A stretch of 43,456 nucleotides of DNA from the NCBI GenBank assembly GCA_905233455.1, contig CAJOES010000003.1, positions 1 to 43,456 on the forward strand, read 5' to 3'. This stretch comes from an uncultured Synergistales bacterium (GTDB lineage Bacteria > Synergistota > Synergistia > Synergistales > Aminobacteriaceae). Every line of letters begins with the position of its first letter. The first letter of the stretch is position 1. Positions 7,905 to 43,456 of the stretch are shown in pieces. A program made the translations under genes and the position numbers. The notes under the pieces are model-generated. The model worked only from the letters and a program-made list of their open reading frames with translations, did no database searches and was not told the DNA's origin.

Positions 7905-8930
7905 TTGATTATGAAATTTGATAATGCTGAATTTATGCTTTTGATTATTCCATATAAAAGTTTTTTGGCTAGGATTTTGCAAAGGAGTGAAAGAGGGGTA
8001 TTATCTGAATTGAACATACTACACATGAAATATGCTGTTGAAGTGGCAAATGCAGGGTCATTGAACAGGGCATCAGAAGAGCTTTTGATTGCACCGCCGA
8101 ACCTGAGCAGATCCATCAAAGAACTTGAAGCAGATTTAGGCATAATGATATTTGACCGGTCATCTAAAGGAATGATGCTGACCAAACGCGGCGAGGAATT
8201 CGTACATTACGCGAAAAAGATTCTTGAACAGATTGATGATGTCGAACGGGCATTCAAGGAAACACCTCCGGAAAAAAAACAGTTCTCTATATCAGTGCCA
8301 AGAGCAAGTTATATCGCTGATGCCTTCGTGAGGTTCTCTAAGTCTATAGGCAGCGAGCCTGTAGAGCTGTACTACAAGGAAACCAACCCATACAGAGCCA
8401 TCAAAAATATCATGGAAGTGAATTACAGGCTGGGGATAATACGTTATGCGGAATGTTACGACAAATATTTTATTGACACTCTTGAAGAAAAAGGACTTGC
8501 GCATGAACTCATAGCAAAATTTCATTACGTCCTCATCATGAGCAAGGATAGTCCACTTGCTGAAAAGGATACCATACATTTTGATGACTTGAAGACTCTT
8601 GTAGAGATTGCACACGCAGATCCTTTCGTGCCGACCCTGCCGTCCGCAATCGTCAGGAAGGAGGAACTGCCCGACAATATCGGAAGGCGCATATTCGTAT
8701 TCGAGAGAGGGAGTCAGTTCTATCTGCTGTCGGATAACACTGAAACATTCATGTGGGTATCACCTGTTCCGAAGAAGATTTTAGCGCGGCATAACCTGAT
8801 ACAGCGGGAATGTCCGGACAATACGAAAACATACAAGGACGTGCTGATATACCGCAAAAACTATGAGCTGTCGGATCTGGACAAAAAATTTATCTCTGAA
8901 GTTCACAAATCCATACAGAATAATTTTTAG
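7905..8930 (+). CDS. LysR-family transcriptional regulator
   Basis: HTH region MKYAVEVANAGSLNRASEELLIAPPNLSRSIKELEADLGIMIFDRSSKGMMLTKRGEEF. True start is probably near 8010-8030. Confidence 0.88.
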   Translation: MIMKFDNAEFMLLIIPYKSFLARILQRSERGVLSELNILHMKYAVEVANAGSLNRASEELLIAPPNLSRSIKELEADLGIMIFDRSSKGMMLTKRGEEFVHYAKKILEQIDDVERAFKETPPEKKQFSISVPRASYIADAFVRFSKSIGSEPVELYYKETNPYRAIKNIMEVNYRLGIIRYAECYDKYFIDTLEEKGLAHELIAKFHYVLIMSKDSPLAEKDTIHFDDLKTLVEIAHADPFVPTLPSAIVRKEELPDNIGRRIFVFERGSQFYLLSDNTETFMWVSPVPKKILARHNLIQRECPDNTKTYKDVLIYRKNYELSDLDKKFISEVHKSIQNNF

Positions 8931-30981: not shown

Positions 30982-31081
30982 TTTTAGTTTTACCCTCCTT
31001 CTTTAGGGTCAGAGCGTGAATAAAAACTCTTTCCCGTCAGAAAATTTTTTGCATGATTATAGCACTCATACAGTATTATGC

Positions 31082-31087
31082 TATAAT
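31082..31087 (+). promoter_or_regulatory. Extended -10 promoter element (TGCTATAAT)
   Basis: TATGCTATAATTTC upstream of the repeat-bearing glycosyltransferase; a matching TGCTATAAT lies upstream of the paralog (32272-32277). Confidence 0.55.
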
Positions 31088-31125
31088 TTCAAAAAATACA
31101 TGAAAAGGAGCTTGACAAAATCAAA

Positions 31126-32192
31126 ATGGCCGTCATAATTGACCAGACCAGACCAGACCAGACCAATTTTATGTACTTATAAACCATATTAAACAAGTTG
31201 TAAAAAAATTCCTTTCAAGGCTTAGTTTATTGAAATATATACAAAGAATGAAGCATAATTTTGGTTTCATTTTATGGCCTTTTGTGCGGTTCATATGGTA
31301 TATGGAACACATCTTGTTTAAGATATTCAAGAGAAAGAAAGAATACTGTATCCTTCGTTATTTAGGAAATGGAGCAGGTTTTTTTTGTTATTTCAATACG
31401 CTTCTGGGCGGTATTGCTTATGCAGACAGAAAAAATATGATTCCCATAATTGACATGAAATACATCAGAAACACATACCTTACTGATGATAAAGTAGGAA
31501 GGGTAAATGCGTGGGAATATTATTTTGAACAGCCGGCAAAAATATCTGCAGATGAAGTTCTTTCGCATGAAAGGTGTTTTATATTCGACCAGACACATTA
31601 CCTGCCGGGACCGCTTCAGAATCCTAATTTTTATTCTGGAAGAGGCGGTATGCTGAGTTACTGGCAAAAGATACGCAAAAAATACATTCGTTTAGCTCCT
31701 GCAGTTATAAACAGATTTGAGAATATGAAGATAAAGTACAAAGGCAAAAAAATACTTGGAGTACATATACGCGGAACTGATTACACAGTACTGAAACCAG
31801 CCGGACATCCTGTACAGCCTACACCTGAACAGGCGATAGACAAGGCAAAAGAAGCTATGCAGGAAAAAAATTTTGATATTTTATATCTTTCTACTGAAGA
31901 CAAGCGAATTATGTCGAAATTTCAAAAAGCATTCGGAGAAAAGCTGATATATCCCGAAAGCGAATATGTAGAATTTGATTATACAGGAAGCAATCACGGA
32001 TATATTGATTCGTATACTATCGACAGGGATAACGATAAATACCTGCGCGGCATGGAGTATCTAGTTTCTATATTGTTCCTGAGTCAGTGCGATGGAATAA
32101 TTTGCTCGCAATGCGGCGGTTCTACAGGAGCTTTCCTGTTTTCCGAAGGTTTCGATTATCTCTATGTCTTTGACTTGGGATATTATGACTGA
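31126..32192 (+). CDS. Putative fucosyltransferase-like glycosyltransferase (O-FucT/NodZ-like HIRGTD motif), predicted phase-variable; ORF-track start is TTG at 31230
   Basis: GVHIRGTDY motif, LYLSTEDKRIMSKFQKAFGEKL, GIICSQCGGSTGAF. ATG31126 is out of frame at 5 repeats and in frame at 4 or 7. Frame 0 is open from 31143 through the ORF. Confidence 0.75.
31141..31165 (+). repeat. Pentanucleotide simple sequence repeat (GACCA)x5
   Basis: Exact gaccagaccagaccagaccagacca, immediately downstream of ATG at 31126. Confidence 0.98.
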
Positions 32193-32311: not shown

Positions 32312-33215
32312 ATGAAACCATCAGGTAATTTCCATCCAATTAGATATATATTCAAACTGATGAGAAAATTTATCAGAAATTCTAAATTGCTTGATTTTCT
32401 GCTCAGAATAAGGACAAATTACCGCCTGTTCCTCTGGAAAGTCGAGTATGCACTCTTCAGCAGTATACGCAGAAGCAAAAAACTGTGCGTTATTTACATA
32501 GGCGAAACAAAAGCAGGCTTCTTTGCATGTTTTTTAAGAATCTTGTCAGGAATAGCATATGCTGACAGACATGCAATGATACCTGTAGTTGATATGAAGA
32601 ATCACTATAACGCTTATCTTGAGGAAGGAGAGCTAGGTAAAGTAAACACTTGGGAATATTATTTTATAACATAGACGGACAATTAGATTACTGGAGATAT
32701 ATATGCAGAAAATATATAGTACCTTCTCTTGCTGTACAAAATGAAATTGATAAGTTTAAGAAAAAATTTACGGGCAAAAGGGTTCTGGGAGTATCATTGC
32801 GCGGAACAGATTATGTAGTGCTCAAACTTCATGATCACCCTGTACAGCCGGAATCTGAGACCGTAATCACTAAAGCAGTAGAGGCAATGCGTGAAAATAA
32901 TTTTGATGCTTTATATCTATCGACTGAGGATAAAAACATTGTTGCAAGATTTCAGGAAGTGTTTGGTGAAAAGCTGCTGCTTCACGATGAAAAGTATGTG
33001 GATTTTGATTACAACTCTGACAAATGGATAACCCATTATTCAACCAACAGAGAACATGATAAATATCTTATGGGATTTGAATATGTAGTCTCAAAACTTC
33101 TGCTCATGGAATGCGCGGGTCTTATTACTACTATGACCTGCGGTACTACAGCATTAATGTGTATGTCCCAAGAATGGGAATATTTATATGTGTTGATTTG
33201 GGATATTACAGTTAG
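32312..33215 (+). pseudogene. Decayed paralog of the fucosyltransferase-like gene (internal frameshifting deletion plus 3' single-base frameshift)
   Basis: Two ORF fragments (32312-32674 and 32650-) align to the upstream paralog: GKVNTWEYYF | ...QLDYW...VLGVSLRGTDYVVLKLHDHPVQP. About 35 codons are missing between them. TATGTGTTGATTTGGG probably lost one T, since an added T restores YVFDLGYYS-stop. Confidence 0.82.
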
Positions 33216-38784: not shown

Positions 38785-41700
38785 ATGAAAAAGCGTTTAT
38801 TGGGTCTTGCTGTACTGGCGGGACTGGTTTTTGCTATCGGCGCGTCGGCATTCGCAGAAGAATACTGGATTGACGACGTGTTTGCTTCCGGCGGGCTTAC
38901 TGGTGTAACCGTAGGCACTCAGCAGACAACTTCCATAAATGAAGGTGCTGATGAGACTTTTATAGCAGAGGTAACCTTGAGGTTCTCTAACGGCGGCAAT
39001 GTACAGACACCTTCAGTAACGTTTACGAAAGGCAACACAGAAGCGTCATTGCCGTATTACTGGGATGCTGCGGATGGCTACGAGCTTTACGGAAGCAATA
39101 TGAAGCTTGTAGCCATCAACTCAGAAAGCGGTAATGACGATGAAATAGGCGTAGACCATTATGAGTTCAAGCTCCTGCTTTACATCGGCGCAAATTCTGA
39201 CAGTGCAGGAAGCTATACCGGTATTATAGGCTACAGCGGCAACAATAACACAGGCACAGTCACTCTTACGGTTAATGAGTATGCCGCAGACCCTGTGTTC
39301 TCTTCAGCCGAAGAAGTCAGCGTCGAATTAGGGGAACAGGGAGCTGTTGCAGGAATGGCTCTCAGCAACTACAAGAACAGTGAAGTAACTTGGAGCATAA
39401 ACGCTGAGGGAGAAACTGCACTAAACGCGCTGAACCTTACCTTTAATACAGAAAACGGCACAGTCAATGTAAAAGATAAAACTTCAGGCAATAACGGCGT
39501 AGATTACGGCACAACAGGACAGGCAAAATTTACCGTAACAGCAACGGTCAAGAAGAATCCTAAGCCCCATGAAGACCAGACAGTTACGCTCACTGTAACC
39601 GGTGCGGAAGCTGCAACTTTCTCTGCATCACCTGCAGATGGTTCAGACCTTGCAAAACTGTATGATACATATGAAAAAGGTATTTATGTTGGTGATGAAA
39701 TCGATGTCGCAAACGCAAACTATGAGAAAGCGTTCAAGTTCACCATCAGCGGCACTATTCAGGGACTCAGCTTCGATTACTATGGTCTTCCTGCCGGCTT
39801 GAATGTCTACAGCACTACTGCTGTTGCCAACAACAGGTTTGCAGACGGTCCCGATGCCAAGAACGGTACAAGGGACATCACAATTACCGGAAAACCTACA
39901 ACGCCAGGCCCCAGCACATTCACAATCACTGCTTACAATAATGTCGGCGATCCTGTTACGAAGACATACCCGATAACTGTTCTTGCTGCCCCGGCACTTG
40001 CTGACGGCACAGGATCAGTAACATGGAACACGGCTTTCACGTCAACGGCACTTGAAGCATCAAACTTCGCTGAAGGCAGTGATCCTATTGTATGGGAAGT
40101 CGACGACAACGTAAGCGGTGCATCTTATCTCACATCTGCAAACCTTGCTTCACTCGGCCTTTCCTTCAACGCTTCAAACGGAACGGTTTCCGGAACATGG
40201 AAAGGCAACGGGGACAGCGGCGGGCTTGTTTCATTCGGCTCAAGTGCTACGGCAGAGAAGAAAGTCAGGATCAAAGCCACAAAGTACGGCAAATCAGCTG
40301 AAGCAGATCTTACATTAACGTTCAACATGGTAGAGCCTGTGCTTACAGTGCCGGCTGAAATGACCTTCTACTATGATGAAAGCGCAGATCAGTACGAGAT
40401 TACGGCAGCAGGCGCAGGCAATATCAGGTTCAGCAGTTTGCCTTATGATCTCTCGAAACTTGATTTGGTTGCAGTAACCAGCACTGATGACGAAGGAAAA
40501 GCCACATATACCATCGGCGGCACTCCTAACTATGTTCTCGGTACAACAGAGCTTTCATTCACAGCATCCAACGCGGCAGGTTCGACGACGGGAACATCCA
40601 AAGTAACGGTAAAAACCAAAAAGGTAGATATACTTGACGTTTCAGAGTTACCTAACAGCGGAGATATATTCTCTCTAGGCAATGTTGTAGGCCCCTTCAC
40701 GGTAAAGGCCAGTCCTGCACCGGTAAAATGGTCTGTTCAGACAATTTTTACTGTAGGCAAGAAAGATACAGAGCGTGATGATATAGTTACCATCAAAGAC
40801 GAAGTATCCAATGCAGATCCTACGGGCGAGACGCATCTGCTCACGCTCACAATGGCGAGACCTACAGGAACTTACGACAACAAGTTTACTAACCTCACCG
40901 CAATAGGCAGCAATAGAATTAAGTTCACCGTTACACACGTTTCAGAGGATACTCCGGCGAAAGCTACTGATGAACGCATAATCACTATACGCCCCGTACC
41001 TGTTATCTCAACAAAGGTTAGTGAGTGGAAGATAGCAGACGGAAAGGCATTCACCAGCCCCAAACTTGAGACGAGCGTAAAGAATGCTGATAAAACGAAT
41101 ATCGTCGGCAACGGAAGCTGGGATATTCGTATGAGTTACAAAAATCAGAATGGCGAGACTATAGAATTCAAAGGATTTGATCCTAATGTTACTTACGAGG
41201 GCGATGATGCCTTTTACAATCAGGTCAATGCCAGCGGTGCTTACATCATTGATGACACTGGGAAAGATGATGACACTTCGAAAGATTACACTGTGGCCTT
41301 TGATAAAGTCGGCGATACATGGGTAAAGCGTCATAACTTCTTGTACGTAACTACAAACGCTAAAGGTGAACCGATAATTACGGGAAGCTTCGACAGGGCA
41401 GTCGACGGAAAGATTACCGTAAAGGTTTATGCAGTAGGCGAAGGCAATCTGGTAGGCAGCCAGGACTTCCCGGCATCGTTTACAGCAGCGGCACCGAAGC
41501 TCGACAAGAACTACAGTCTTCAGCTGGGATGTTGTTGCTACGGGAACGAAGCCGGTAACGATGAATGCTTACATTGCCGGAAAGGACGCTGCAAAAATCT
41601 ACGGCGGCGATGCTAAGACTGCACCTAATATTAGCATCATGTCCGCAGATGACAACGGCCTCGACCCTAACTACAAGGAATTTCCGAAAAGTTTGTCGAA

Positions 41701-43456
41701 TGGCAGTGCGACACCCAACACTACAAGGCTGTTCTTCAGGTACAACAAGTATGACGGCAAAGGACGTATCTTCTTCATGAGGTACGGTTCATCTGAGGCT
41801 GCATCGGATGATCATACCGGACAGTCATACAAGGGCATTCCTGTAACGGTAACGTTTGACAATGCGGCTGTTAAGGATCACAACAAACCTACTACTGCTT
41901 CACTAAAGCTGTCGACTTACGATGGGAAAAACGCACCGACTCTTGAGTGGAGAATTAAGAGCGGAGACGGATTCGTGAGTGTTCCTGATGCGAAAGGCAG
42001 TACAGCTAATGCAGTCAAAGAGTTCAATGCGATTGCCGGAACGCCGTTATCTGATGTTGATACGGACGGCGAACTCACATTCGTGCTGAAAGGCGACGGC
42101 CCTGTAACCGTTACTGCTTCACAGGCAATCGGCGAGGCAAACGCCAAAAACTTCCTTAAGATTGAGGCAGAAGACAGCGACGAGACAACTGACGGCAAGA
42201 TCTACAGGATCACCGGAACTCCTGACAGTACAAAAGAGACCAAGAACAAGATCACCCTTACGGCCAAGAACAACTCAACCGGAGCAAGTGCAAAGATCGA
42301 CGTTACGATTGTAGGCCAAGTTCCCGCTAGTATAGATGCGAAATACTTGGTCAAGACGGCCAACTACCAGAAGGAATTTGACTTGAGCAAGAAGGTAAGC
42401 ATAAAACTTTCTGCTACAGGCTCAAAGCCTCTGACTTGGGATTTTGCTAACGGCACTACTGCTGAGGATTTATCGAAATACAACCTGACGCTTGATTCTG
42501 CTAAAGGCGTGATAGAAGGAACTCCTGAGATTGTTACGGCAAACTCGGACGGTACTGCCTATGAATCTAAGGATTTCTACGTTAAGGCTGTAAACGATGC
42601 GGGTGAGAGTGTGCCTCTTAACGTCAAGATTGGTATCAAAGGGCCTAAGGTGAAAATTAACTCGAAGCAGGTTGAAGTTACCAGAGGCAGCGATCTTGCA
42701 AAGCAGTTAGAAGAGAATCTGATTGAAACAGATGCTGGTGATGGCTACTATGTAACATACAAGTTAGATCCTAAGATGAAGGATACGGAAACAGCGGCTG
42801 TAGAAAATATCGGTATAGACCCTTATAACATAAGCAGGACTGACGATAACAAAGGCAAGCTGAACTTCCTTAGCGGTGTTTCTGACCTTAAGGCTACGAC
42901 CGGAACAACATTAAAGTTCATTGCGGACAACTACGGGACTGAAGTTGCCGGCAGTATCAAGATCATTGTACATGACCCGAAACCTGTAATAGCACAGGCT
43001 TCCGGAATAACCATGACTGCCAGCTTGAATGAGGCACTGACAGATACAATACCATTATCGATTGCAGACAACACCAGCACCGGAGATTCAAAGATTACAT
43101 GGAAGATCAATAACAAGGTTGATAAGCCTGTAACTGCGAAAATTAATATTCCGGACAAGACAGACACTACTAACGCTGAACTGCAGATAACGGTAGCGAA
43201 GGTTAAAGCAGACCAGTACGAATATCCATTAACCATACCGGTTGAGGTAATTGCTACAACCAGCTCTATCAAGGATAAGACTGCTGCTGCGAGTGAGGTA
43301 ATGCCTGTAAATATTACAGTCAACGCACCTGGCGATGCTGCAGCAGAAGCACCTGAAGCAGAGGCTGTACCCGAAGACGTGATCGCCCCCGAAACCGACA
43401 CTGAAGCAGAGGCAGAAACTGAAGCTGAACCTGAAGCAGAAGCAGAAGAGAATGCT
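38785..43456 (+). pseudogene. Giant secreted Ig-like/cadherin-like repeat protein, frameshifted near 41515-41521 and truncated by the window end
   Basis: Signal peptide MKKRLLGLAVLAGLVFAIGASAFAEE with AAGGAGG upstream; repeated Ig-like units (YGLPAGLNVYS..., ITGKPTTPGPSTFTITAYNNVG). The +1 frame then continues WDVVATGTKPVTMNAYIAGKDAAKIYGGDAKTAPN... open to 43456 (not in ORF track). Acidic EAEAE tail at the edge. Confidence 0.78.

Follow-up and report, generated by a model that had tools for sequence, protein, structure and literature searches.

The closest described systems are the SSR contingency loci of Haemophilus influenzae, which are tetranucleotide loci of LPS and other surface genes (PMC2651432). 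The arrays of those loci, some of them directly past the presumptive start, shift the frame of glycosyltransferases, many such loci occur per genome and surface glycans are affected (PMC2651432). The loci of the Synergistaceae genus described in this work are alike in these respects. However, the H. influenzae loci have mostly 4-bp repeats of few units, whereas the Synergistaceae loci exhibit 5- and 7-bp repeats of 46 units and no 4-bp repeat. The Synergistaceae loci also belong to a different phylum and exhibit a fixed promoter-like element (P2) at every array as well as a leader-ORF design. The pentanucleotide GACGA array of H. influenzae hsdM is likewise a 5-bp frame-shifting array, for which a high switching rate has been reported at only four units (PMC2651432), but it is a single locus in a restriction-modification gene without a shared cassette. 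The heptanucleotide arrays of hmw1A and hmw2A resemble our loci in their 7-bp units and in having a promoter near the array (PMC2651432). Those arrays lie upstream in the promoter region and affect transcription, whereas the Synergistaceae arrays lie inside an ORF, 0-5 nt downstream of the -10 of P2 and downstream of the predicted upstream promoter (P1), which is not the promoter-spacing arrangement of hmw1A.

Repeat switching at many loci has mainly been described in mucosal pathogens, and a recent review points out that biased databases may be behind this restriction (PMC11868660). No report of phase variation for GACCA, Synergistota or Fretibacterium was found in the open-licence literature, and a paper on rumen Synergistota (PMC12366334) has no mention of such repeat switching. 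The earlier note was likewise not aware of a description for this type of organism. Repeat switches as such are already known from a few pathogens; the scale, the fixed layout and the bacterial group appear to be new.

The window is the whole stretch of 43,456 nucleotides that was analysed. The features of its switch-like locus are shown in Table 1. The array (5.0 copies, 100% match by TRF) and its entry were re-read at the positions first proposed, where ATG31126 is followed by GCC GTC ATA ATT and then by the repeats. At five copies the ATG31126 frame is translated as MAVIIDQTRPDQTNFMYL and stops after 18 residues. Re-derivation of the coordinates and of the arithmetic joins this frame to the long frame at four copies, seven copies and so on. 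A TGA at 31140-31142 precedes the long frame, which runs open from 31143 to 32192 and whose first ATG, GTG or TTG is TTG31230; some protein could be made from this codon in the OFF state. The core AAGGAG (31105-31110) lies 15 nt ahead of ATG31126, and across the window's subclass of loci this gap measures 15-17 nt, which is longer than ideal. The coordinates and the arithmetic of the earlier note are correct. A pattern search of the 2.49-Mb genome of the organism gave just four sites with three or more GACCA copies, and the array is far beyond chance.

Table 1. Coordinates of the features of the window locus.
Feature	Position	Strand	Basis
Predicted upstream promoter of the SD-bearing mRNA (P1), extended -10 TGCTATAAT	31079..31087	+	Sequence; TGnTA[TA]AAT at this place in 59/133 sister loci vs 1.0 expected
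Shine-Dalgarno (SD) AAAGGAG	31104..31110	+	Sequence; SD before or inside the cassette in 132/134 sister loci
TTGACA, -35 of P2, kept between SD and tract	31112..31117	+	Exact in register in 37/44 GACCA/TGGTC tracts; reversed-pattern control 0
Start codon ATG, tract entry	31126..31128	+	Sequence; open starts into the array in 127/134 sister loci vs 44 expected (shuffled spacers)
CATAAT, -10 of P2, 16 nt past TTGACA and 1 nt ahead of the tract	31134..31139	+	Association of -10 with array, OR 18, p 2.5e-6
Tandem array, putative switch, (GACCA)x5	31141..31165	+	TRF
Fucosyltransferase-like frame after the tract, 341 codons + stop	31167..32192	+	Joins ATG31126 at n = 1 mod 3; weak FUT8 match; FUT8/NodZ fold
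TTG, sole ordinary start in the 5' part of the long frame if no slippage occurs	31230..31232	+	Frame reading

The 341 residues after the tract exhibit no match to a Pfam or NCBIfam family. A phmmer comparison with FUT8 gives a weak match (E 7e-4). In a Foldseek search with a model built from six homologues of the genus (pLDDT 73.7), FUT8 (E 2e-9) and NodZ (E 3e-8) are among the best PDB matches. The best fold match is to the alpha-1,6-fucosyltransferases of GT23, from which the window enzyme differs in its 14-18% identity, a TM-score of about 0.5 and the lack of a Pfam family. The label "fucosyltransferase-like" that had been given to the enzyme is well founded on the modelled fold and the weak sequence match. 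A second fucosyltransferase-like gene lies directly downstream (32312-33210) without TTGACA and without an array; this paralogue is disrupted by a frame change and by a gap within it that covers about residues 122-158 of the first enzyme. The window also contains a hexanucleotide array of GAAGCA type at 43403-43452 (8.5 copies, 80% match) within an ORF that starts at 41561. That array is in frame and is thus no frame switch.

The window locus is not a lone tract. Its switch anatomy stands, and it belongs to a family of well over a hundred loci with the same anatomy genome-wide and with many other units; this family, the sigma-70-like promoter P2 directly against the tract and P1 upstream had all been missed by the first reading. 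The common layout consists of an SD, TTGACA, a spacer of 16-18 nt, a TATAAT-like hexamer and a perfect tandem array 0-5 nt further. The counts given here rest on pattern searches and on fetched stretches. By pattern search, 18 of the 43 genomes in the genus have a tract of at least four GACCA copies and the 145 other genomes of the phylum gave no match; the named records with such tracts are Synergistaceae MAGs from goat gut and one "uncultured Fretibacterium". The SD, TTGACA and a -10-like hexamer 16-18 nt further and against the array accompany 39 of the 44 GACCA/TGGTC tracts. The pattern TTGACA-N14-28-GACCAGACCA gave no match when reversed as a control. Three patterns that combine the SD with TTGACA gave 70 matches in the genus against about 18 when reversed (AAAGGACTTGACA), 81 against 1 (AAAGGAGCTTGACA) and 60 against about 11 (AGGAGGTTGACA). 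The second of these gave about 10 matches in the 145 genomes outside the genus, which is near background.

Most of the SD and TTGACA sites in the genus carry arrays other than GACCA, such as GACAC, CCACA, CACAT, CGCACAT, GTTCGCA, GCTCACA, GACAGCA, CGGCTGT and many more. A total of 134 distinct loci with the cassette layout were fetched from the genus, among which GACCA is over-represented as the first unit to be searched. These loci comprise 46 repeat units after rotations are collapsed; GACCA as a special sequence was rejected, and an inverted repeat that flanks the tract (CATAATT...AATTATG) was dropped as not general across units. The reverse-complement unit TGGTC occupies the same sense-strand position at two loci of the window's own genome (L312 and L020, on contigs 38 and 35 of G000), and therefore both strands of the GACCA repeat serve. 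The window's own genome has at least 26 cassette loci. Its sequence has 38 matches to TTGACA-N16-18-YAYAAT, of which 24 enter an array directly and one more enters a gap of N, and two further loci are on contig 35. On contig 83 of G000 (8131-8159), a cassette has ten N at the array site, an assembly gap at a probable array.

The periods of the 134 loci are 7 (66 loci), 5 (65), 2 (2) and 8 (1), and none is a multiple of three. At the window and at these loci, a perfect array of such a period lies between a start codon and the gene body. Copy number ranges from 2.6 to 15.6, where all genomes are metagenome assemblies in which repeat number may be consensus or error, and several contigs end inside arrays. 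The open starts and the SD (Table 1) point to translation that enters upstream of the array; ATG is the open start at 91 loci against 22 expected. The start codon is spread evenly over the three phases relative to the gene (21:21:26 in design 1 and 12:14:12 in design 2, as defined below), and copy number is thus not constrained to the frame of the gene.

Two designs were identified among the 114 loci with enough downstream sequence. Design 1, to which the window locus belongs, consists of an array within the N-terminus of a long ORF (68 loci). Design 2 consists of an array within a short leader ORF (46 loci). In several loci of design 1, the Pfam domain starts 2-10 residues past the array, as observed for GT2 (L333, L340 and L314), Acyl_transf_3 (L291 and L061) and Stealth (L321). 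This leaves no room for a later start, so translation probably enters from upstream. In design 2, one leader frame stops at the start of the next gene, overlapping or adjoining it, in 39 of 40 callable cases (23 expected; at most 31 across 500 shuffles), and the overlap is ATGA or GTGA in 16 cases against 5.4 expected (at most 11). This arrangement is a signature of translational coupling, by which the next gene would be expressed. The target genes encode GT1, GT2, GT61, Acyl_transf_3, MBOAT, Stealth, Bac_transf, sulfatase, PIG-L and methyltransferases, and a few are not obviously surface genes (ornithine cyclodeaminase-like and GNAT).

We propose, with a probability of about 0.9, that the tract is a translational contingency switch. 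An mRNA from P1 or from the operon would carry the SD and the start codon just 5' of a perfect 5- or 7-bp array, and slipped-strand mispairing would add or drop units. As the unit length is not divisible by three, each copy change would move the reading frame. In design 1 the right phase would fuse the start to the enzyme, which in the window is the GT23-like fucosyltransferase, and the other two phases would stop early. In design 2 only one leader phase would reach the stop at the start of the next gene, which would then be translated by coupling. Translation through the tract with ON/OFF control by slippage is strongly supported by the anatomy of the loci; we infer slippage as the source of change, the lack of enzyme as the OFF state and the coupling of leaders. 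The ON/OFF reading of the earlier note, with the present state OFF and ON at n = 1 mod 3, is backed by the periods, the even phases, the domain starts and the tract-free homologues described below.

The alternative that survives best is a transcriptional element. It holds that P2 is a real promoter with its start within the array, that copy number acts by tuning the 5' UTR or the initially transcribed sequence, and that the SD and ATG are accidental. P2 (TTGACA-N17-TATAAT) is indeed the same as the promoters of this organism ahead of tRNA genes. Its -10 is also linked to the array: 79 of the 85 sites that carry an array have it, against 8 of the 19 that lack one. The genes of design 2 have their own RBS. 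However, upstream SDs and open starts occur far above chance, the domains of design 1 begin right past the array, and the periods avoid multiples of three, which an effect on the UTR does not need. This alternative is therefore considered very unlikely. The predicted +1 of P2 falls inside the array, downstream of the SD and ATG, and thus RNA from P2 could not make the proteins of design 1.

The -10 positions of P2 are more informative than most spacer positions; the 134 loci were gathered by pattern, which fixes TTGACA and the A2 and T6 of the -10 by construction. P2 is not required by the translational switch, and we can only propose roles for it: a driver of array instability, extra transcription of the genes of design 2, or interference with P1. 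The view that an array arises wherever a promoter is strong is not supported because 13 of the 38 consensus promoters of the window's own genome, two of them ahead of tRNA genes, have no array. It is conceivable, though rather unlikely, that P2 belongs to the switch as a dedicated component, with the DNA melted by RNA polymerase exactly at the array and with repeated rounds of initiation destabilising the array or even spawning new 5- and 7-bp arrays at this one site.

The comparison of related loci bears on the remaining alternatives. Three fucosyltransferase homologues (L342, L345 and L349) lack an intact array but retain the SD and TTGAC, and their ATG start is at the tract position. Pairs of homologous loci (L398/L402, L256/L260, L084/L386 and L035/L064) vary in copy number and, throughout the array, even in the unit; the units are GACCA and CAGAGAG in L084/L386, and GACCA and AGAGCAC in L035/L064. 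The comparison of L366 and L389 for copy number was set aside, as one of the two contigs breaks off inside the array. These differences are as expected if slippage turns the arrays over. Two loci of one genome (L279 and L282, on contigs 16 and 114 of G029) exhibit a near-identical 5' cassette and N-terminus with 4.4 and 5.3 copies and different gene bodies, which suggests that cassettes are also shuffled.

An assembly error or a pseudogene, where the window gene is merely frameshifted, would fit the fragmented assembly of 166 contigs and the broken paralogue next to the gene. This is slightly less probable again than the transcriptional element, as the same anatomy is present with open genes in dozens of independently assembled genomes and some loci are in frame (L019, L053, L083 and L086). 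The reading that the arrays encode an N-terminal peptide repeat of the DQTRP type, which the proteins would need structurally and which would have no part in switching, can practically be dismissed: a stop-free 5- or 7-bp unit does encode the same repeat in all three frames, but the homologous genes with swapped units carry unrelated ones, about two thirds of the arrays are out of frame with the gene, and such a repeat would favour periods of 3, 6 or 9.

GACCA arrays of 6-17 copies were also observed at several places in two unrelated kinds of gut bacteria, Brachyspira (L164 of Brachyspira alvinipulli, L110, L113, L142 and others) and Endomicrobium (L132, L145, L159 and L172). L164 reads ATG-CCT-GCA-(GACCA)11 ahead of a frame of 549 codons. 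The TTGACA cassette is absent from the flanks read at these arrays, which look independent of the cassettes of the genus; convergence and transfer of the unit are both possible. A cassette of the genus type (TTGACA-N17-CAAGCT-T-GACCA x5; L148, 4025-4049) stands at the end of a contig that was assigned to a Eubacterium MAG from roe deer rumen (RGIG4867), and this contig is either mis-binned or a transfer.

The reading in which transcription drives the arrays, if true, would give the contingency loci a built-in mutator. It would account for two observations: across homologous genes the position and the promoter stay while the repeat unit is exchanged, and sites that lack the array often lack the -10 as well. 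The promoter against the arrays makes it directly testable whether transcription initiation drives repeat mutation.

With the translational switch as the preferred reading, a genus-wide set of predicted translational contingency loci for surface glycans stands in Synergistaceae, with two designs and a conserved promoter-like element. This would be large-scale repeat switching in an uncultured, mostly ruminant-gut genus, with at least 26 loci in one genome and dozens of units at one fixed site. Each cell would express a chance combination out of at least 26 surface-glycan and envelope genes. The findings in this work predict cell-to-cell diversity of surface glycans in gut commensals, which may bear on phage escape and host immunity.
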